Below, piece after piece: positions 29,742 through 40,961 of a stretch of DNA of 64,000 nucleotides (position 1 is the first letter of the stretch; each line of letters opens with the position of its first letter). The notes below the pieces were generated by a model. The model had not been told where the DNA came from. It did not search any database and saw only the letters and a list, made by a program, of their open reading frames with translations. The translations under genes and the position numbers were made by a program. This stretch comes from Burkholderiaceae bacterium (GTDB lineage: Bacteria > Pseudomonadota > Gammaproteobacteria > Burkholderiales > Burkholderiaceae_D), in NCBI GenBank assembly GCA_018261755.1, contig JAGTRJ010000004.1:1-64000 (forward strand), given 5' to 3'.

Positions 29742-29818
29742 CGGGGCGTAGCGCAGCCTGGTAGCGCACCTGCATGGGGTGCAGGGGGTCGTGAGTTCGA
29801 ATCCCACCGTCCCGACCA
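29742..29818 (+). tRNA. tRNA-Pro (GGG)
   Basis: A 77-nt gene. The acceptor stem is CGGGGCG paired with CGTCCCG, discriminator A, and CCA is encoded. The anticodon arm is CCTGC/GCAGG with loop ATGGGGT, giving anticodon GGG, which reads CCC. The T-loop is GTTCGAATC. A degenerate copy of its 3' 40 bases occurs at 34145-34184, marking it as an integration site. Confidence 0.95.
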
Positions 29819-29826
29819 ATAAAATC

Positions 29827-29866
29827 AACGGGTTAGCGAAATTTAACGCTGCCCGTTTTTCTTTTT
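29827..29866 (+). terminator. Terminator after tRNA-Pro
   Basis: AACGGG-TTAGCG stem pairing with CGCTG-CCCGTT, loop AAATTTAA, followed by a T-rich run. The following stretch 29870-30231 is AT-rich and shows no gene. Confidence 0.8.
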
Positions 29867-30231
29867 CAGGTGTTCGTGTTCGAATCCTGTCCGAAATATC
29901 AGCTTAACTTACTCCATATGAGTGATTAAAAGTTTCTGGCGCTTGATGCACGCAGAGGTCGACCGTGATCTGCTCTCCGTGCCAAGTAGATTCATAGAGT
30001 CATCAACGTCTTAAAACTCAGTCATTGCCACACGGTCAATAAGTCAGTAAATTATTTCTTTGTTTTTGGAAGTAAAAGTTTGGCCTATTGTGAGATGTAT
30101 TTCCAAAGTGCGGGTAACCGCCAGAATTTAAACAGCATTACCTGGTGGGCGAGGTCGGAACATTACTTCAAATGACTCAATACACATAACGTGAAGAATG
30201 TTCCGAACAAACACCGCCTAGCAGGCAACAA

Positions 30232-30996
30232 GTGACAAGAGAACAAAAACATACGCGGATTAGAGTTCTGTCAGACCTGCATTTGAACAATAAAGGTTGG
30301 CAAGCCCCTTCAGTGCCCGCAGACATTGTTATTCTCGCTGGGGACATTTCCAATGGTGCTGCAGGTCTGCATTGGGCACGACAAGCTTTTCAGGACACCC
30401 CTATTGTCTATGTGTCAGGTAACCAAGAACTGTACGGCCATAATGTCGATCAGCTGCTACCTGAAATGCGCACGCTGGCGCGTCAATTAGGAATCCATTT
30501 CCTGGAGCAGGATATAGCAAGCTTTAACGGATTGCGGATTCTTGGAACAACGTTATGGACCGATTTTGATCTTTTTGGTCAAAGCGCAAGATGGCTTTCC
30601 CTCAACAGGCATAGACGTGATGCTCCACCTGACCGCAAGGACATTCGCACCCAATATGGCGTTGTAACGCCTCTTCTGAAGCTTAGATGGCATGACACTG
30701 CTGTGGCATGGCTGAGAAATGAGCTTCAAAAAAATTTCGACGGTCAAACAGTGGTTGTTACGCACCATGTTCCGACAATTCGTGGTTTGCCGGATCGATA
30801 TATAGACGATTTGTCCTCAGCTGCCTTTGCATCCAATCTTGACTGGATGTTGCCGTTCGCTGACCTTTGGGTTTGCGGACATACGCATACGGCGGCAGAC
30901 TTCCAAGCAGGTAGATGTCGCGTTGTAATAAACCCGAGGGGCAGAACGTTAAGTGGAAATAACGGGTTTGATCCTGAACTGGTCATCCGGGTTTAG
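30232..30996 (+). CDS. Calcineurin-like metallophosphoesterase
   Basis: A 254-residue metallophosphoesterase with ordered metal-site motifs: SDLHL near residue 14, LAGDISNG near 36, SGNQELYG near 63, VTHHVP near 177 and CGHTHTAAD near 216. The third motif is normally GNHE; here Gln replaces the catalytic-site His, which may alter activity. The start is GTG with a weak AGG upstream. It is the first gene of the tRNA-Pro island. Base composition is clearly AT-richer than in the housekeeping genes, consistent with horizontal origin. Substrate unknown. Confidence 0.85.
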   Translation: MTREQKHTRIRVLSDLHLNNKGWQAPSVPADIVILAGDISNGAAGLHWARQAFQDTPIVYVSGNQELYGHNVDQLLPEMRTLARQLGIHFLEQDIASFNGLRILGTTLWTDFDLFGQSARWLSLNRHRRDAPPDRKDIRTQYGVVTPLLKLRWHDTAVAWLRNELQKNFDGQTVVVTHHVPTIRGLPDRYIDDLSSAAFASNLDWMLPFADLWVCGHTHTAADFQAGRCRVVINPRGRTLSGNNGFDPELVIRV

Positions 30997-31207
30997 CGTA
31001 TTAATGCCAGCCCTCTCGCTTCAAATAGCACTAAAACGGCCACAGATCACCATTAAAAGCGACACAGAATCATCTATTATATTTTGTGCTGCAATGGCGC
31101 ATTAAACGAAGGCCAAACAAAAGGAGTGGGATGTCTGACACTTAATCTTAGATATATCAGGTTTTGCCTTGTACTCTAAATTTGAATAAACGATACGGAG
31201 AGACGGA

Positions 31208-31843
31208 ATGAGAAAAATAAAATGGCTAATGACGGGTTTGGCCTTTGTGTCGGTCACAGCTACGGCACAATCTGCCAATTTTGACGGAGTGCATCTGGGT
31301 TTGGGAGTGGCAGTGATTCAGCCTACTGTTCGTTACACTGATGCTGATGGTAGTCTATTAAAATGGGAAAAAACCACAGCCATGCCCGAAATTGATCTTT
31401 CATACCATAAAGCTTTAAATAACAAATTTTTGCTAGGCATAGGCATTAACGCAAATTTTGGCAAAAGACTGGATTTAGGAACTGAGTCTGAAGATTATGG
31501 GCGAGTTAGCGCATGGATGAGTCGGCATTATTCTATCTACATCCAACCGACTTATGTGTTAAACAACTCCACGGCTGCATTTGCCAAGTTGGCCTACCAT
31601 TCCGCAAGAGTGAACGCTGTAGGACAACCAGGGGCAGATTGGATTCCCGACCGTTTTAGAGCACATGGTATTGGATACAGTCTGGGTGCCGTGAAAAATA
31701 TTGATAAGAATTTTTATATCCAGGGCGAGCTTCAATATGTCAAGTATAGTGACAGAAATTTTGTGAACGAATACGACTTTCACTGGAAATTCAATCAAAG
31801 AACAGTCGGGGCCATTTTTAGTGTTGGATATAAATTCCAATAA
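31208..31843 (+). CDS. Outer-membrane beta-barrel protein
   Basis: A 211-residue protein with a signal peptide (residues 1-22, ending AQSA). Alternating hydrophobic/aromatic strands suit a small barrel: VHLGLGVAVIQPTVRY, FLLGIGINANF, YSIYIQPTYVL, FAKLAYHSARV, YIQGELQYVKYS and VGAIFSVGYKF. Probably an eight-stranded opacity/OmpA-like barrel, though the last residue is Gln rather than the usual Phe. GGAGAGACGG precedes the ATG. It lies in the island and is AT-rich. No specific function can be given. The following gap (31844-32266) contains no convincing gene. Confidence 0.72.
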   Translation: MRKIKWLMTGLAFVSVTATAQSANFDGVHLGLGVAVIQPTVRYTDADGSLLKWEKTTAMPEIDLSYHKALNNKFLLGIGINANFGKRLDLGTESEDYGRVSAWMSRHYSIYIQPTYVLNNSTAAFAKLAYHSARVNAVGQPGADWIPDRFRAHGIGYSLGAVKNIDKNFYIQGELQYVKYSDRNFVNEYDFHWKFNQRTVGAIFSVGYKFQ

Positions 31844-32266
31844 AAATTGTGGCAGCCCTAAATGCGCTCTATAAACCTATTTGAAGCATAAGGGCTGCTT
31901 CAATTTATTTTCGCCGTGCAAAGCCTTGCGGCAAAACTCTAGGCAAGGTGGCTATAGGTCTCATACCAGACCATATCTACTAATTAGACAATATCCGGTT
32001 CGGCCGAGTTGCTGTCGTTGTCTAAACGCACTGAATGACCGCTCCGAGCTGGCACCGCCGCGGCATAGAGCTTCCGCAATTGGCCGATTACCGCCTGTTA
32101 GTCGCATTACTTAACGGTCTGCTTTGGATCGTGAGCAGACATTTGCAGTTCGTAAAAATGGGCGATTTACCCGGCATAGCCTCAAATTGTTGGTATAAAT
32201 TGGTTGTAACTTGGCAAAACCACGTCCCCATTGATTTTTCTAGATGGATTGGATTCCGACTCCCGT

Positions 32267-33895
32267 TCAAGGAGTCGTGCAGCTAAAGCTTGCAGCAGAA
32301 TTCACGTCGCCTGTGCCGTTATATCGTGGATACTGCGGATGCCGACAAACCGGCAACGTGCGCAGCACAGACCCTGTCGATTTATCGCGCTTGTTGTACA
32401 CCAGTTGTTCCGGCGCCCGATTGTTTTCAACCCAGTTTGTGATGGCATCGAACCAATTTACGTCCGTCAACTTCTCGCCATCTGTGTGACTTCCGCCGGG
32501 AACGACAAAGAAACGGGTGTGGTTTGACGGATCCGTCAGGCCCAGTCCGGCAGTCATGCCAATCATTGTGGAATAATTTCTGACGTGATCATTAAACGAT
32601 GTCAGGTTGTCGGATCCGTCGTGCCAGGAGATCAATTTCCGGCCGGACGCAATGTAGGCGGCCACCCGGCTTTTATCTGGAGCCGCGCCGATGGTGCGCA
32701 TTCCGTATTGAAAAATCGGGTAATCATGATTCAGGTTGAACGACTGCTGCTTTGCCAACTCGCTAAACCATGACGGATCGCCCGTTGCCAGCACGGCATT
32801 CCCGCCGCCCAGCACGCCAAAATACACGACGTGCGGATACCAGTCCGTCCAGTTATAGCCCGAATAGACCGTTGTGTCATCCGCAAGCTTTATATCCGAA
32901 GTCACGGCTTTAACCGTCTGCACTTGTTCTGCGGTCAAGCATTTCGCCGGATCCGAATCCGCGGTCGGTTGACCGCACTGCAACGAGCCCACATCGAAAT
33001 GGCACGCAGACTGGTTGGCAATCATTCCGTCGGTCACGCCGTCAAGTGCATCGCACGCGGCAATGGCAGCCGCAGTAACAGCTTGCCACTGCGTTGCGGA
33101 AGGCATCGCCGTCGTCCCGTTGCGGGAACCCAAATTCATCCAACCCACCGTCTGGCCCGTGACGTCCATGCCCATGCAACCCGAAACGATCCCGTCATAT
33201 TCGTCAGGCCAGCGATCTGCGGCCATATAAGCATTTCGTCCACCGTTGGAGCAACCATTGAAATACGTCCGCTCTGGAAATTTTCCATAGAATATTTTTG
33301 CCAATTCCTTCGCCAGCTTGCGCGTCGTTTCAAGCGCCTTATATGCATAGTCTTCGGCTGACGCGACACCCTCTTTCGTTCCGTCGGCCCACACCAGTGG
33401 CGCCGCCTGCGACGGAACGGATGAACGATTCCCGCCATTTGACGCGGCATACACAGAAAGCCCGTCCTTCAGGGCGATATTCATGCTGGCGATCGCGCCG
33501 GTCGCTGCATCCGTTGTGATTGCAGACGTAATCTTTCCATCGAGCCCGCCTCCGCCTTGCTGCCAAAGCCTACCGGACCAATTCGCCGGAAGATCGATCT
33601 CCATGTCCAGATAGGGAGACCGGGTTGCGCTCACCTGGCAGAAAGCGGGATAGCCTGCCGAAGCGTCGTACCACCGGGTCGATGTAATGGTCACGTCGTC
33701 TATGGTTGTGCCATTCAGACTGGCGCAGCTTGCCGCGAGCCGCGTCGGATTGGTCGAGAAGCTGCCGCCTCCGCAGCCCGCCATCAACAACGAGCCGATA
33801 AGCGCAGCGCCTCGCATCAACCGAACTGTCCAATGCCTAGCGAGCCGGGCGGTTTCAAGGTCATTAATGATGTTCGATGATTTCATGGCTTTCAT
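32267..33895 (-). CDS. Tannase/feruloyl esterase family lipoprotein
   Basis: A protein of about 542 residues of the tannase family (PF07519), hydrolases of aromatic esters. The nucleophile motif is NGCSNGGRNAYM, replacing the commoner GCSTGGR but keeping the serine. DVNWFDAITNWVENNRAP and the H in GGSHTDGE fit the C-terminal catalytic region. A lipobox (LLMAGC) lies near the N-terminus, so it is probably surface or periplasmic. The start is uncertain: ATGs at 33895, 33886 and 33817 are all possible; the last gives a short canonical lipoprotein signal. It occupies the far end of the tRNA-Pro island. Confidence 0.78.
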   Translation of the reverse strand: MKAMKSSNIINDLETARLARHWTVRLMRGAALIGSLLMAGCGGGSFSTNPTRLAASCASLNGTTIDDVTITSTRWYDASAGYPAFCQVSATRSPYLDMEIDLPANWSGRLWQQGGGGLDGKITSAITTDAATGAIASMNIALKDGLSVYAASNGGNRSSVPSQAAPLVWADGTKEGVASAEDYAYKALETTRKLAKELAKIFYGKFPERTYFNGCSNGGRNAYMAADRWPDEYDGIVSGCMGMDVTGQTVGWMNLGSRNGTTAMPSATQWQAVTAAAIAACDALDGVTDGMIANQSACHFDVGSLQCGQPTADSDPAKCLTAEQVQTVKAVTSDIKLADDTTVYSGYNWTDWYPHVVYFGVLGGGNAVLATGDPSWFSELAKQQSFNLNHDYPIFQYGMRTIGAAPDKSRVAAYIASGRKLISWHDGSDNLTSFNDHVRNYSTMIGMTAGLGLTDPSNHTRFFVVPGGSHTDGEKLTDVNWFDAITNWVENNRAPEQLVYNKRDKSTGSVLRTLPVCRHPQYPRYNGTGDVNSAASFSCTTP

Positions 33896-34144
33896 GAGGA
33901 AAATGGTTCCAGACTCACTATACAATCGCCGTAGAAAAAGCGCTATGAGAAAACTGTGGTCCGCCCCTTATTGTACCCGCCAGATATGCGTATGAGAGTC
34001 GTGGTATCAATAGACTATTTTTCGCGCAGGTCGCCGCCACAAACACCGCAGGATCTTTCTGTGCACAACTGCATCAATCTGCGACTGCCAACGTATGGCA
34101 GCTTTCTTCCGTGGGAATTTGAAAAAGAAAAGCAAGAAGATGTC

Positions 34145-34184
34145 GTGCAGGGGGTAGTGAGTTTGAATCCAACCGTCCCGACCA
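34145..34184 (+). repeat. Degenerate attachment-site copy of tRNA-Pro 3' end
   Basis: Forty bases matching 29779-29818 with three differences, ending in the same CCCGACCA. There is no 5' half, so it is not a tRNA gene. It marks the right boundary of the island. Confidence 0.8.
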
Positions 34185-34196
34185 GAACAGTCATGC

Positions 34197-34235
34197 AAGG
34201 GTTGGTGATAGCATTCACCAACCCTTTTCTTTTTT
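34197..34235 (+). terminator. Terminator beside the tRNA remnant
   Basis: Perfect 12-bp stem AAGGGTTGGTGA/TCACCAACCCTT, loop TAGCAT, then a T-rich run. Its position right after the remnant suggests it was the tRNA's original terminator before insertion. Confidence 0.88.
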
Positions 34236-34245
34236 GTCCCGACGC

Positions 34246-35466
34246 ATGACTTCCAGCCAGACTGGTAATGCGCCGCTCATCCTGTTCGGCGCATTCGATC
34301 GCCATAACTTCGGCGACCTGCTGTTTCCGCATGTTGCCGCGGCACTTCTGCCGGGCAAGAATCTGCTGTTCGCCGGACTAGCGGAACGCGATTTACGCGC
34401 GTATGGCGGCCATCGCGTGGCTTCGCTGGCCAGCGTGCTGGCCGAATTCAATCACCAGCCAGTTGACCTGATGCACGTCGGCGGAGAAATCCTGACCTGT
34501 AGCGCGTGGGAAGCGGCGGCGATGCTGCTGCCGCCGGAAAATGCGCAGCTAACCATCGCGCGGCTCGATGCCAGACCGCACGAAAGGCAAGCGTGGGCGC
34601 GGCAAGTGCTGGCAACGGATGCAATGGCGCCGTATTGCCTCTCGCGTGCGCGCTGGCCGCAAATCAAGCGCGTGGTTTTCAATGCCGTTGGCGGCGTTGC
34701 GCTGGATGGCTTGCCTGACGACATGCGCGCGGAAATCTTTGCCAGCCTGAATGCGGCCGATGCCGTTGGCGTGCGCGAGCGACAAACGCTGGCACATCTG
34801 TCGGCGGCGGACATCGCTGCGCGGCTGATGCCAGATCCGGCGGTGATGGTGGCCGAACTGTTTGCTGCGCATATCCTGCAGCGTGGCAAACAGCATGAAG
34901 TGGCGCGAATTCAGCAACGATTCGAGCACGGCTATCTCGCGCTGCAGTTCAGCGCCGATTTCGGCGACGATGCAACCCTGTCGGCAATTGCCGCACAGCT
35001 TGATCAAGCGTCGGCGGAAAGCGGGTTGGGAATCGTATTCTTCCGCGCCGGCGCCGCGCCGTGGCACGACGAACTGGGCGTTTACCGACGCTGTGCAGAA
35101 CGCATGAAAATCAAGCAGACGGCGATTTTCGATTCGCTCGATCTTTGGGACATTTGCGCGCTGATTGCAGCCAGCCGCGGCTTTTGCGGCAGCAGCCTGC
35201 ACGGCCGCATCGTCGCCACCGCGTTTGCCTTGCCGCGCGTCAGCCTGCTGCGCGATGCCTTCGCCGGTCACCGCAACAAGCAGGCAGCGTATGCCGCCAC
35301 CTGGGAACCGCGGACGATTGCCGGCATCACCGGAACGAGCCATCTGGCACAACATCTGTCACAGGCGTTGACAACCAGTCGGACGCTGTTGCAACAGACG
35401 GCCGACCGGCTGGCCGCCGATTATCGACAAAGATTCAACACGTTGCGTGCAGCGCTGTCAGGCTGA
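34246..35466 (+). CDS. Polysaccharide pyruvyl transferase family protein
   Basis: A 406-residue protein of the pyruvyl transferase family (PF04230). The N-terminal PLILFGAFDRHNFGDLLFP is the expected first strand and loop, and the late motif RGFCGSSLHGRIVATAFALP near residue 315 is the family hallmark (quoted in part). Members transfer ketal pyruvate to polysaccharide sugars. The ATG at 34246 lies only 10 bases after a terminator T-run, with no visible ribosome binding site; a TTG at 34234 is an alternative. How it is transcribed is therefore unclear. No polysaccharide cluster adjoins it. Confidence 0.78.
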   Translation: MTSSQTGNAPLILFGAFDRHNFGDLLFPHVAAALLPGKNLLFAGLAERDLRAYGGHRVASLASVLAEFNHQPVDLMHVGGEILTCSAWEAAAMLLPPENAQLTIARLDARPHERQAWARQVLATDAMAPYCLSRARWPQIKRVVFNAVGGVALDGLPDDMRAEIFASLNAADAVGVRERQTLAHLSAADIAARLMPDPAVMVAELFAAHILQRGKQHEVARIQQRFEHGYLALQFSADFGDDATLSAIAAQLDQASAESGLGIVFFRAGAAPWHDELGVYRRCAERMKIKQTAIFDSLDLWDICALIAASRGFCGSSLHGRIVATAFALPRVSLLRDAFAGHRNKQAAYAATWEPRTIAGITGTSHLAQHLSQALTTSRTLLQQTADRLAADYRQRFNTLRAALSG

Positions 35467-35716
35467 AGCGGGCCGGCAACATTACGGCAGGTATTTCAAC
35501 TTCAGTTTTTTCAGCATTTGCTGAAGTTCCTCATGGCGCCCCGACCCAATATCCGGATTTCACAACCATGAACTTGCACGTCAATAATTACATCGCCTCG
35601 CCACTGTGCTTCAGTGAAATCTGAATCCCGGCACAAAAAATTTCTAACCGTCTGGATGCCGCCTGAACGGCAAGCCACGGTTTTACTCGCTTGACGCCTG
35701 GCGAAGGCACAACGTC

Positions 35717-35755
35717 CATATGCGAATTCATAAACTGAATGATTGTTCATAAAAT
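35717..35755. promoter_or_regulatory. TetR operator upstream of aldo/keto reductase
   Basis: CATATGCGAAT, four variable bases, then AAACTGAAT.ATT.TTCATA. The same arrangement occurs at 37589-37627 over the TetR start. Inner arms TGAA/TTCA are at 35736-35749. It lies 85 bp before the reductase ATG, in the 35467-35840 gap, which holds no other feature. Confidence 0.7.
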
Positions 35756-35840
35756 GTCGTGACGTTATCCGCAATACCGGCGCGCTAACTGCACGCAACC
35801 ATGCTCTCGAACCATCTTTACCGTGAAATGGGAAAAACGC

Positions 35841-36746
35841 ATGTCGAACATCACGAACATCACACAACGCACGACGACCTACCGTTTGGGCGATCGCATT
35901 GTGAATCGTCTGGGCTATGGGGCAATGCAACTTTGCGGGCCGGGTGCTTTTGGCCCGCCTTCGGACCCAGATAAGGCGCGTGCCGTTTTGCAGGCAGCCG
36001 TGGCCGGCGGAATCAACCACATTGACACCTCCGACTACTATGGCCCGCACGTGACCAACCACCTGATTCGGCAATCACTCGCGCCGTATCAGGACGACCT
36101 GGTCATAGTCACCAAGGTCGGCGCCAAACGCGGGGCGGATGGCTCATGGCATCCTGCGCTTTCGGCGGCAGAATTGACGCAAGCCGTGCACGACAATTTG
36201 CGCCACCTTGGGCTGGAAGCGCTGGATGTCGTGAACCTGCGCAGCATGTTTGGCATGCTGGGGCCGATGGAGGGATCACTGGAACAACCGCTCTCGGTGC
36301 TGGCCGAATTGCGGCAACAAGGATTGGTGCGCCATATCGGCTTGAGCAATGTCACGGCTACCCAAATCCGGGAAGCGCGCCAGATCGTTCCGATTGTCTG
36401 TGTGCAAAACCTGTATAACCTGGCGCACCGCAGTGACGATGCATTGATTGATGCGCTCGCCCAGGACGGGATTGCTTATGTACCCTATTTTCCGCTTGGC
36501 GGCTTCAACCCGCTGCAATCAGCCATTCTGACTTATGCCGCACAGTGGCTCGACGTCACCACCATGCAAGTCGCCCTGGCCTGGTTACTGCATCGCGCTC
36601 CCAACATCCTGCCCATTCCAGGCACCTCTTCTCCGCCCCATTTGCAGGAAAACATCGCGGCCGCAACACTCGAACTGCCGGAGGATGTGCTAGCCTACCT
36701 GGATGGCATTGCCAGCGCTGAACCACAGGACTCGTCCTCAGCTTGA
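35841..36746 (+). CDS. Aldo/keto reductase
   Basis: A 301-residue NADPH-dependent aldo/keto reductase. Catalytic-site motifs: INHIDTSDYYGPH near residue 62 (Asp and Tyr), VIVTKVG near 90 (Lys), the position after GLEALDVVNLRSM near 130, and IGLSNVTATQI near 176. The cofactor region is LPIPGTSSPPHLQEN near 260. At the usual His position the sequence reads VVNLRSM, so the catalytic His appears to be replaced by Asn or a neighbour. The start MSNITN was chosen with GGGAAAA upstream. An operator matching that of the nearby TetR gene implies control by it. Confidence 0.88.
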   Translation: MSNITNITQRTTTYRLGDRIVNRLGYGAMQLCGPGAFGPPSDPDKARAVLQAAVAGGINHIDTSDYYGPHVTNHLIRQSLAPYQDDLVIVTKVGAKRGADGSWHPALSAAELTQAVHDNLRHLGLEALDVVNLRSMFGMLGPMEGSLEQPLSVLAELRQQGLVRHIGLSNVTATQIREARQIVPIVCVQNLYNLAHRSDDALIDALAQDGIAYVPYFPLGGFNPLQSAILTYAAQWLDVTTMQVALAWLLHRAPNILPIPGTSSPPHLQENIAAATLELPEDVLAYLDGIASAEPQDSSSA

Positions 36747-36946
36747 AGCAAAACGCAAGACCATGGCATTCGTTCTGGCATGCAACATTGACCTGATACC
36801 AGCACTCCTGCCGCATGTATCCGGGCCAAAACAGCAATACTTTCATGGTCCACATCGGGCGTGAAGTTCCTTCGCTTCTGCTCGACTTGCCGGCCAATGC
36901 CATCGACAAGGATTTCCGCCCACTTACCGCGCCTGGCGGTATTGCT

Positions 36947-37591
36947 TCACGGTGCGCCGCGTTCCCGCGCCACTGCCTGCAGGTAGCCGCGGCACAGCGT
37001 CAGCAGCTGGCTGCGTAGCACGTTGAGCCTCCTTTCCTGCATTCCCAATTCGAACACCGCCCTCGTGGTGCCATTCATAGCAGTCAGCAGGGTAAATGAG
37101 ACATCCGGCAAATCATCGAACTGCGCATCGGTCGCGCTGGCCAGCATCGCAGTGCAGGCGTCTTGCAACTGGCTGGCTGTGCTGATGCGCAACTCGTCTG
37201 TATCCAGTTCTGCCGCGATTTTGTATAGTGCGCGCGACAAATCGGGGTTGCGGATCTTGATGTCGATAAACGCATTCACCATTCCCTCGGCCATTACCGC
37301 CATGGATGCGTTGCGCAACTGTCTGCATGCCGCATCAAATCCGCTCACAAATTCGGTTAAATGCTGCTGAATCACGGCATACAGCAAAGCCCGCTTGTGC
37401 GGAAAATACTGGTACATGGTGCCAACCGATACCCCGGCCCGCTCGGCCACGCGGGTCGTTGTCAGCCGATGCTCGCCATCTGTCAGCAAAACCTGAACGG
37501 TGGCTTTGAAAATGGCATCCACCGTCACTTCCGATCTGGCTTGGCGCGGCGTCTTTCTTGGCTTGAGAGCTTCAGGGTGATCAATATTCAT
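36947..37591 (-). CDS. TetR family transcriptional regulator
   Basis: A 214-residue regulator. The DNA-binding helix-turn-helix is at about residues 25-70: IFKATVQVLL, RLTTTRVAERAGVSVGTMYQYFPHK (quoted as known family hallmark, in parts). The rest is a helical ligand-binding and dimer domain with no identifiable ligand. A strong palindromic operator overlaps its own start codon, so it is probably autorepressed, and the same motif stands before the aldo/keto reductase. Divergent to the TRAP solute-binding gene. The gap 36747-36946 toward the reductase shows no gene. Confidence 0.9.
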   Translation of the reverse strand: MNIDHPEALKPRKTPRQARSEVTVDAIFKATVQVLLTDGEHRLTTTRVAERAGVSVGTMYQYFPHKRALLYAVIQQHLTEFVSGFDAACRQLRNASMAVMAEGMVNAFIDIKIRNPDLSRALYKIAAELDTDELRISTASQLQDACTAMLASATDAQFDDLPDVSFTLLTAMNGTTRAVFELGMQERRLNVLRSQLLTLCRGYLQAVARERGAP

Positions 37592-37627
37592 ATGCGAATC
37601 TGGAAACTGAATAATTATTCATATAAT
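37589..37627. promoter_or_regulatory. TetR operator over its own start and TRAP gene promoter
   Basis: CATATGCGAAT....AAACTGAATAATTATTCATA; it includes a perfect 14-bp palindrome TGAATAATTATTCA at 37608-37621. It overlaps the TetR ATG and lies 85 bp before the divergent TRAP-type gene, so it can control both. Confidence 0.72.
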
Positions 37628-37711
37628 ACAACGACTGCCATCGCTACCGCTAAAACCGATTCGCTGCCACGAATACATTTCAGATTACCCCCACCTTTTG
37701 AAGGAAACGCA

Positions 37712-38780
37712 ATGCCTGCCCTATCCTCGCGCATCAAGCTTCTGTTAATAACAATCGCTACATTCTTGCTGCCCACCGCGGCTTCGGCGCAAAAAGTGCT
37801 GCGCTACTCCGACCATGAACCTCTGGGCGGAATGCGCACCAAGTTCATCAAGGAAGTGTTTTTTACGGCCATAGAACAAGAATCACAGGGCCGTCTTAAA
37901 ATACAGGACCACTGGGGCGGCAAGGTTGCCGGCGCCTATGATGCCTTGCGCATCGCCGGGGAAGGCAACGCTGCCGACATGAGCATCGTCGTTCCCGAAT
38001 ACACGGCCAAGGAACTGCCTTTGCACCAGATTTTCAAAAGTTTCCCCACCGGGCCTAGCGGCAACAGGCAGCTCGACTTTTTCCGGCGCGTGTACGCCGA
38101 AGTGCCGGAGTTCGCCGCGGAACTGGAAAAAAAACAACGTGGTGCCCGCATTCATCGGCACCGGATACCCGGTTGCCTTTTTCAGTACCGAGCCACTGCG
38201 TGGCCTGGATGATATCCGCGGACAGAAATGGCGCTCGGCCAGTTTCTGGCACCGTGATTTCCTGCGCAACGCCAGCGCCACCCCTGTTTCGATGCCATGG
38301 AGCGTAGAAATCGTCAACGCTCTGCGCGCCAACAGCTTGAACGGCCTGATGGTCAACGTGGATAGCGGCTACATGCTCAAGGTGCATGAAGTCGCGCCCC
38401 ATGTCCTGCTATCGAAGGAACTGTGGCTGGGGCACGTTTATTTGCTGGTCATGAACCGCGACACCTGGAACGCGTTGGCGCCAGCCGATCGGGATGCGAT
38501 CCAACGCGCAGCCGAGCGCGCCTACCGCACCCTGGGCCAGGTGATGGATAGCAGCTTCGATGAGCAAGTGGCGACCTTGAAGCAACATGGCGCTACCGTC
38601 CGCATTCTGAAGGCAGCCGAAGTGCATGACTGGCAAACGGCCACCCGGCATCAGAAAGTTCAGGCTGACTGGGCAAAGAAACAGGAAGAGCAAGGCGGAA
38701 AAATGGTCGCAGCCGTGCTGGCAAAAGTCAGCGCCATCCTGCGTGAAAGCATGCCGCCAGCGCCGCACGCAGCGGAGTAA
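37712..38780 (+). pseudogene. Frameshifted TRAP transporter solute-binding protein (DctP family)
   Basis: The reading frame starts at 37712 with a signal peptide (LLLITIATFLLPTAASA) and DctP-like sequence (VLRYSDHEPLGGMRTKF). It is broken at a run of eight A at 38127-38134. With seven A the protein reads through (ELEKNNVVPAFIGTGYPVAFF..) and continues to 38780 with conserved KWRSASFWHRDF and GLMVNVDSGYML segments, giving about 355 residues. The first frame alone ends at 38212. It could be a true pseudogene, a sequencing error, or a slippage-expressed gene. No DctQ/DctM permease genes are adjacent, so it is an orphan binding protein. The TetR operator lies just upstream. Confidence 0.8.
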
Positions 38781-38881
38781 CCAGGCTGACCGGTGCTGGC
38801 AACCCTCTGTTCCGGGCAAAGCGGAGCAAAGGGGAAGCAAAAGGCGCGATAATGGCCCATCGCCCTCACCCAAGGCATGGC

Positions 38882-39340
38882 ATGAAAACCGGAATCCCTG
38901 GCCGACTGCTCGTCGCGACCCAGTTTGCGCTCATAGGGCTGATACTCGTCAACTGGCAGCCGGCATACAGCTTGTCATGGCCGGGAATGGTGGCGCTGGC
39001 AGCCGGTGCCGCGCTTGGTATCTGGACGCTGTTTTTCAACCGCATCGGCAATTTCAATATCCGGCCCGAACCAAAACCGGGCAGCCATCTAATCACCAAC
39101 GGCCCTTACCGCACCGTCAGGCATCCGATGTATACCGCCGTCCTTCTGCTGTGCGCGGCGCCGGCGCTATCCGTTGGCACGCTGTACCAGGCAGCGTGCT
39201 GGCTGCTCCTGCTGGCGGTACTGTGGAAGAAATCGTCGGTCGAGGAGGATTTGTTGCGGCAGCAGTATCCGGACTATGCCGCCTATGCGGCCACGGCTGG
39301 ACGTTTTTTGCCGCGTATGAACCTCAGCCGCAAAAAATAA
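38882..39340 (+). CDS. Isoprenylcysteine carboxyl methyltransferase family membrane protein
   Basis: A 152-residue membrane protein with four hydrophobic segments. The conserved motif GPYRTVRHPMYTA near residue 77, followed by EEDLLRQQYPDYAAYA near 120, is diagnostic of the ICMT/PEMT-type membrane methyltransferases. Bacterial members have mostly unknown substrates. The ATG at 38882 starts just before the first helix. It is convergent with the MFS gene 4 bp away. Confidence 0.82.
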   Translation: MKTGIPGRLLVATQFALIGLILVNWQPAYSLSWPGMVALAAGAALGIWTLFFNRIGNFNIRPEPKPGSHLITNGPYRTVRHPMYTAVLLLCAAPALSVGTLYQAACWLLLLAVLWKKSSVEEDLLRQQYPDYAAYAATAGRFLPRMNLSRKK

Positions 39341-39344
39341 GGCG

Positions 39345-40961
39345 TTACCAGAACAGCGGCTGTTCGCGCAGATGGCCGCCGATGTAATGCGTGACTTTCG
39401 GCGGCCGTTCACCGATGTGGAAGGCGCGTGCCTTCTTGTAGATGTGCTTGTCGGAGGCGATTTCGCGCTCATGCTGGCGCAGGTGTTCAAGCCAGGATTC
39501 AATCATGAAGCACTCGACCACCTTGCCCGGCTCCTCGGAATCGGTGAACATTTCCCACATGAATGCGCCATCGCGCCGGCGCAGGCGGCGCACCTGATGC
39601 AGTGCATGGGTAAACTCTTTCAACTTGTCCGGTTCGATGATGTATTCGATCATCACCATTACTGGCCCGCGATCCATCTCGCTCTCGTCACGGAAATGCG
39701 GCGTGGTCCAGTGCACTGTCGGCGTCAGGTCTAGCACTTCCAGTTGGCCAATGCGGAATTCCCAGGTCGCCGCCATGCCAACCATTGCGCCGATGGCCGC
39801 AAGCGTGAGCGACATCGGGATGCCGATCCAGGATGCAACCTGGCCCCAGATCGCGCTGCCGACCGCCATCCCGCCCATGAATACCACCCAGAAGAATGCC
39901 AGCCCACGCGCGCGCACCCAGGCCGGCAAAGCCACCTGCGCCGCTGCCATCGACGATGAAATCACGCTGATCCACGCCATGCCGGAAAAGAACATGGCCG
40001 CGATGCCGGCCGCAATGCTGCCGCTGTGCGCCAGTACCAGCATGGCGCCGGCAAACAGCGCGGTCGAGCCGCGCAACAGCTTGTCGCGCGATATCCGCAG
40101 CCGCAGATGCGGCAGCACGAAAGCGCCGGCAATGGCGCCCGTGCCAAGCGCGGCCAGAAACAGGCCGTAAGTGTCTGCGCCGCCACCGAGGCCATGCCGC
40201 ACCAAGAGCGGAATCAGCGCCCAGGAAGCGCTGGCAAAAATCACAAAGGCGCCAACCCGTACCAGAATTGTGCGCAATTCCGGCGCATTGCGCGCATAGC
40301 GCATGCCGGCGCGCAATGCGCCCACCAGACGCTCAGCCGGCAGTTCGCCGTCAGTCGTCTTCCGGTGCCAGCCATACAGCGCGACGATAACTGCGCCGAA
40401 GGAAATGGCATTGAGCACGAATACCACCCCCGGGCCGGTCGCGGCGATGATCAAGCCTGCCAGCGCCGGGCCGACCGCGCGCGACACATTGACCCCGACC
40501 GAATTCAGGCTGACCGCGCCCTGTATTTCTTCGCGCGGCACCAGTTCGGGGATAATCGCGCCCCAGGCCGGCATCATCATGCCGGAACCGATACCAAGCG
40601 CAAACGTGAATACCAGCAATATCGTGGCATTGGCGGCGCCAGTCAGCGTGAACAGGCCAAGGAATCCGGCTGCCAGCCCCATCCAGATCTGGGTTGCGAT
40701 CAAATAGGTGCGGCGGTCTAGGATGTCGGCCAGCGCGCCCGCCGGCAGGGCCAGCAGAAAAACGGGGAAGGTCGTGGCCGCCTGCACCAGCGCCACCATC
40801 AGCGGGTCGGGCGCGAGCGAGGTCATCAGCCAGCCGGCGCCGACTTCATGCATCCAGGTGCCGACATTGGAAAACAGCGACGCAATCCAGATCTTGCGGA
40901 AGATCGGATGGCGCAGAGGCCACCAGAGCGCGGTGTTGGCGATTGGTCTTGGCTTCGTCAT
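39345..40961 (-). CDS. MFS exporter with C-terminal ABM-like domain
   Basis: A 538-residue protein. Residues 1-410 are a 12-helix MFS permease of the MFS_3/EntS-like type (PF05977), with FRKIWIASLFSNVGTWMH at the start and the loop PAGALADILDRRTYL. Residues 425-538 form a soluble tail resembling an antibiotic-biosynthesis-monooxygenase (ABM) fold (MIEYIIEPDKLKEF, FMIESWLEHLRQHER). The fusion is recurrent in this transporter family. It is likely a drug or siderophore exporter; substrate unknown. The ATG at 40961 lacks a good ribosome binding site. Divergent from the nitroreductase. Confidence 0.83.
   Translation of the reverse strand: MTKPRPIANTALWWPLRHPIFRKIWIASLFSNVGTWMHEVGAGWLMTSLAPDPLMVALVQAATTFPVFLLALPAGALADILDRRTYLIATQIWMGLAAGFLGLFTLTGAANATILLVFTFALGIGSGMMMPAWGAIIPELVPREEIQGAVSLNSVGVNVSRAVGPALAGLIIAATGPGVVFVLNAISFGAVIVALYGWHRKTTDGELPAERLVGALRAGMRYARNAPELRTILVRVGAFVIFASASWALIPLLVRHGLGGGADTYGLFLAALGTGAIAGAFVLPHLRLRISRDKLLRGSTALFAGAMLVLAHSGSIAAGIAAMFFSGMAWISVISSSMAAAQVALPAWVRARGLAFFWVVFMGGMAVGSAIWGQVASWIGIPMSLTLAAIGAMVGMAATWEFRIGQLEVLDLTPTVHWTTPHFRDESEMDRGPVMVMIEYIIEPDKLKEFTHALHQVRRLRRRDGAFMWEMFTDSEEPGKVVECFMIESWLEHLRQHEREIASDKHIYKKARAFHIGERPPKVTHYIGGHLREQPLFW

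Follow-up and report, generated by a model that had tools for sequence, protein, structure and literature searches.

The window analysed here is a stretch of 64,000 nucleotides (Burkholderiaceae bacterium, GenBank assembly GCA_018261755.1, contig JAGTRJ010000004.1) and is part of a 2.4-Mb draft genome. At the locus under study a single tRNA was called by ARAGORN and Rfam (RF00005), an intact tRNA-Pro(GGG) on the forward strand (29742–29818), which forms the left boundary (attL side) of a 4.3-kb interval closed on the right by a non-functional copy of the 3′ part of the same gene (34140–34184, forward strand; attR side). According to the initial annotation, the 3′ 40 bases of the tRNA recur at 34145–34184 with three changes, and this repeat was recovered exactly: 37 of the 40 bases are identical in direct orientation, compared with 24/40 for the best 40-mer match in 100 shuffles of the interval, and the changes fall at gene positions 49 (C>A), 57 (C>T) and 64 (C>A). 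The start of the copy at 34145 had to be moved, since the homology extends to 34140 in the anticodon loop (ATGtcGTGCA...), with two extra changes in the anticodon and an overall identity of 40/45. Across the genome, the comparably strong tRNA-Pro-like places are confined to the tRNA itself and a tRNA-Pro(TGG) on another contig, and no further tRNA copy scored above shuffles in 34185–39345.

The left junction segment directly 3′ of the intact tRNA (29819–29912, forward strand) carries the family motif ATAAAATCAA after the CCA and then a hairpin, and is about 98% identical to the sibling contig L010. If integration took the course that is usual at tRNA genes, this segment would have come with the element. 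A terminator lies here at 29827–29857 (-15.4 kcal/mol), followed at 29867–29888 (forward strand) by a possible, weak remnant of another tRNA T-arm (CAGGTGTTCGTGTTCGAATCC), which was matched by 0 of 200 shuffles of a 142-bp stretch and by 4 of 200 when the whole interval was shuffled. On the other side, beyond the distal copy, a 12-pair terminator hairpin is found at 34197–34226 (forward strand, -20.7 kcal/mol). The initial annotation took this hairpin for the original terminator of the tRNA, displaced by insertion; the perfect hairpin is indeed present, and we infer that it is probably the original one, but the intact tRNA has a terminator of its own at 29827–29857. In L010, the right join falls inside this hairpin, of which the loop and 3′ arm are kept; neither the 5′ arm nor the tRNA copy is present. 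Since the sibling keeps half of the hairpin, the hairpin and the boundary that it marks most likely existed before the window and L010 split.

The G+C content across 29913–34144 is 49.4%, against 59% for the window, which bears out the earlier description of AT-richer DNA, though the composition is uneven across the three genes; the metallophosphoesterase, barrel and tannase-type genes named in that description were confirmed by their Pfam families. The first encodes a calcineurin-like metallophosphoesterase of 254 aa (30232–30996, forward strand, G+C 48.5%; PF00149/PF12850, Metallophos), which is the only PHROGs family match in the interval (phrog_1649) and has no match in the sibling genome G001. 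The second encodes an outer-membrane beta-barrel protein of 211 aa (31208–31843, forward strand, G+C 41.9%; PF13505, OMP_b-brl), whose relatives within the bacterial family occur in one genus only, at 36–38%. After a non-coding or degenerate interval with no open frame matching Pfam (31844–32266) follows a gene for a tannase/feruloyl esterase-family protein of 552 aa (32267–33925, reverse strand, G+C 55.9%; PF07519, E=1e-79), absent in both G001 and G002. Judging from its family name, this enzyme would fit the use of plant phenolic esters, and the cargo genes may still be expressed. Visual inspection had suggested an IS5-like transposase at 31.9–32.3 kb, but Pfam lent it no support and it was dropped.

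Next to the distal copy lies a 53-aa fragment of a LysR regulator (33980–34138, forward strand), truncated at both ends and 62% identical to residues 164–216, in the middle of a 309-aa LysR protein. Homology to plasmid-borne LysR genes stops at 34138–34141, and the tRNA copy starts at 34140. When all six frames of the intergenic pieces were searched with Pfam for what might be left of an integrase or a transposase, this fragment gave the only signal, a weak one (E 0.066), which was later confirmed through DNA similarity. When the DNA of the interval was compared with plasmids, the only matches were to the LysR fragment and to part of the tannase gene; no similarity to phages was found.

The claim that no integrase remains was upheld, as neither Pfam searches of the intergenic pieces nor tblastn with ten integrases of the family gave a credible match in the interval. 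No excisionase, relaxase or phage structural genes are left within it. Weak tblastn matches of several related integrase queries at 33617–33715 (best E 0.011) lie inside the tannase gene on the opposite strand and were set aside as chance.

The same site was then compared with two other species of the genus, L010/G001 and G002. L010/G001 has in common with the window the CYTH gene, the tRNA and the 94 bp 3′ of it at the left junction, and a right flank with pyruvyl transferase, ICMT-like and MFS genes; the first of these three is a polysaccharide pyruvyl transferase-family gene in the window (34234–35466, forward strand; PF04230), with 74% amino acid identity in L010. Between the junctions L010/G001 holds 7.2 kb of different DNA with a DUF2939 gene and type I hsdR, hsdS and hsdM. 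The latter form a complete type I restriction-modification set (L010 1644–7822) at the same tRNA-Pro site. In G002, the CYTH gene and tRNA-Pro are followed 0.5 kb on by the MFS gene, without the cargo and without the pyruvyl transferase gene. The content of this site thus varies within the genus, and no relative was seen to carry the same genes without island boundaries. An exact empty site, in which the tRNA would run straight into the displaced terminator (in the order tRNA-Pro, GAACAGTCATGCAAGGGTTGGTGA...ACCAACCCTT, pyruvyl transferase gene), was not found in the two other species, G002 also being without the right-hand gene; the comparison succeeded in another genus, as described below. 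In Tolumonas (L024), a tRNA-Pro(GGG) lies 3.2 kb before a pyruvyl transferase gene, but the intervening DNA is unrelated and this candidate was set aside.

A second variable spot was observed to the right of the island. The block at 35471–38883 (aldo/keto reductase, TetR and TRAP-like genes) is absent in L010, where the pyruvyl transferase and ICMT-like genes stand about 0.2 kb apart at the corresponding place. Within this block, similar sequences at 35717–35755 and 37591–37628 (CATATGCGAAT....AAACTGAATnATTnTTCATA) lie on either side of the aldo/keto reductase and TetR genes and are likely operators of this TetR. The TRAP-type solute-binding gene (37717–38780) apparently runs in two frames, near an A run at ~38130, and appears to be a frameshift pseudogene or a sequencing error.

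Across the bacterial family, a truncated 3′ copy of tRNA-Pro(GGG) was found in 13 genomes, that of the window and 12 others (G088, G100, G133, G218, G373, G388, G166, G016, G079, G070, G161 and G026). Most of these copies start at the anticodon loop and run past the CCA into ATARAATCAA. In seven of the 13 (G088, G100, G133, G218, G388, G070 and G161), an integrase gene points away from the copy, with its start ~85–215 bp distant; four of these genes were assigned by Pfam (Arm-DNA-bind_3, Phage_int_M, Phage_integrase) and three by similarity to those four. A different integrase adjoins the copy in G079, an integrase adjoins the intact tRNA in G028 and G014, and the element of G133 carries a TrwC relaxase. 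The exact empty site was found between two genomes of one genus, G127 being that of a 38-kb island in G088. Their left flanks agree at 93% over 1.5 kb, through 13 bp past the tRNA, and from inside the tRNA onward G127 corresponds to the DNA right of the distal copy of G088, 38 kb away. The terminator GGCCAATC...GATTGGCC stands directly after the tRNA in G127 and beyond the distal copy in G088, so that the displacement of a terminator is seen directly in this pair.

When the distal copies were compared base by base, gene position 49 was found to be A in 8 of the 13, and C in all 34 distinct intact tRNA-Pro(GGG) sequences; exact matches to the A type occurred in six places among 392 genomes, none of them a full tRNA. 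This comparison is of a small sample, with the A and C types coming from different searches and the genomes not being independent. Because independent decay would hardly produce the same A, it may represent the allele found in the attP of a widespread clade of integrases, a reading that we hold to be evenly balanced. If so, the crossover would have occurred 3′ of position 49, on the T-arm side, even though the anticodon loop is where the repeat starts; the T-loop C>T, the T-stem C>A and the two anticodon changes of the window's copy would be decay.

Taken together, the decayed island at tRNA-Pro(GGG) proposed in the initial annotation is supported by its boundaries, its cargo, the differing content of the siblings, the integrases of the family and the G127/G088 pair. 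Very probably, a mobile element was inserted into the 3′ part of tRNA-Pro(GGG) by a tyrosine integrase and has since decayed to a relic resembling a cis-mobilizable element; we infer that the window's segment entered by the integration reaction of the family. The original element would have been a prophage, an ICE, an IME or a satellite, among which its type is no longer distinguishable. The tRNA sequence carried in its attP would have begun at the anticodon loop and ended shortly beyond the CCA, leaving the gene whole at the left; the 3′ part and terminator that had belonged to the host would have been displaced to the right end, now 34140–34226. During decay the integrase and transfer genes would have been lost, with the metallophosphoesterase, barrel and tannase genes left as cargo and the LysR fragment touching the right copy. 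The loss of the integrase probably removed the right end of the element, since in the relatives the integrase lies close to the right end, on its inner side, at the place that the cut LysR gene occupies in the window. Such a relic would be unable to move by itself. The bases just 3′ of the CCA of the distal copy (GAACAGTCA) fit the family motif ATARAATCAA poorly, which would count against integration. So would the lack of any integrase, excisionase, relaxase or phage structural gene in the interval, and that of an exact empty site in the two other species of the genus.

Counting against a single island is the nearly host-like composition of the tannase gene, and the pieces may have arrived separately. 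We give about an even chance to a site built up in layers, in which the interval would be the debris of several successive insertions and deletions and its cargo would have been exchanged, while the left junction and the right flank were both conserved. The widely different G+C of the three genes, the LysR fragment cut at both ends and the weak second T-arm remnant at 29867 all fit such a history, as do L010, which agrees with the window in the 94 bp at the left and in the right flank but in nothing between them, and G002, which is without both the cargo and the right-flank gene. Against it, a single distal copy is detectable as far as 39345 and no internal att copy lies between the genes. This history is compatible with the insertion and decay of a mobile element, and refines it.

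It is very unlikely that the segment is still mobile, with both att copies usable and excision achieved by an integrase supplied in trans from an incoming element. The att-flanked elements without integration and transfer genes of their own described in PMC5704250 offer a precedent, many elements of the family have att sites of the matching type, and the attL side of the window is intact; however, 5 of the 45 bases of the distal copy are changed, its outer flank has diverged, and none of the three strongest integrase loci of the genome, as compared, matches the Arm-DNA-bind integrases found at tRNA-Pro(GGG). Least credible of all is a local duplication of the tRNA around ordinary host genes, which finds a parallel in one genome of the family, G065 (L152 1575–4530), where a tRNA-Pro 3′ repeat extends into the duplicated end of the flanking TetR gene, looks more like a segmental duplication than an att scar and was set aside; the repeat of the window goes no further than the tRNA and adjoins a truncated gene, the genes between are missing from the siblings and equivalent half-tRNA copies elsewhere adjoin integrases.

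The segment left by the insertion and decay of a mobile element can be placed among known systems. Like the tRNA/tmRNA islands of Islander, which are recognized by a regenerated tRNA gene and its displaced fragment (PMC4383910), the segment has its two ends marked by an intact tRNA and a displaced 3′ fragment in the correct, direct orientation, and among the relatives the site is differently occupied in L010 and the cargo is absent in G002. Unlike those islands, it has no integrase gene between its ends, for which the Islander filter tests, and it is therefore a relic and not an intact island. As in the cis-mobilizable element (CIME; Pavlovic et al. 2004), as PMC5704250 defines it, the segment has lost the integration and transfer genes. 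Its left end is intact, and it differs in its right att copy, which is damaged (40/45) and has a diverged outer flank. tRNA-Pro is a described site of Burkholderia islands and PhiE125-like prophages (GI6b, GI9c and phage PhiE125; PMC2612704), but that set includes intact prophages, and what the window holds, in a different bacterium, is a small relic that lacks phage structural genes. For general biology, the segment is a further relic of a known kind of tRNA island, an ordinary event.

For the family, tRNA-Pro(GGG) is an integration hotspot, occupied by restriction genes in the sibling and by metabolic and surface cargo in the window, and elsewhere by relaxase-bearing elements or a 38-kb island. 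The half-tRNA scar and the displaced terminator stay readable after the integrase has been lost, and the A that recurs in the distal copies may help to locate the crossover. If the A at position 49 is indeed an attP allele, the scar of a decayed island would by itself be enough to tell which integrase clade the island belonged to.
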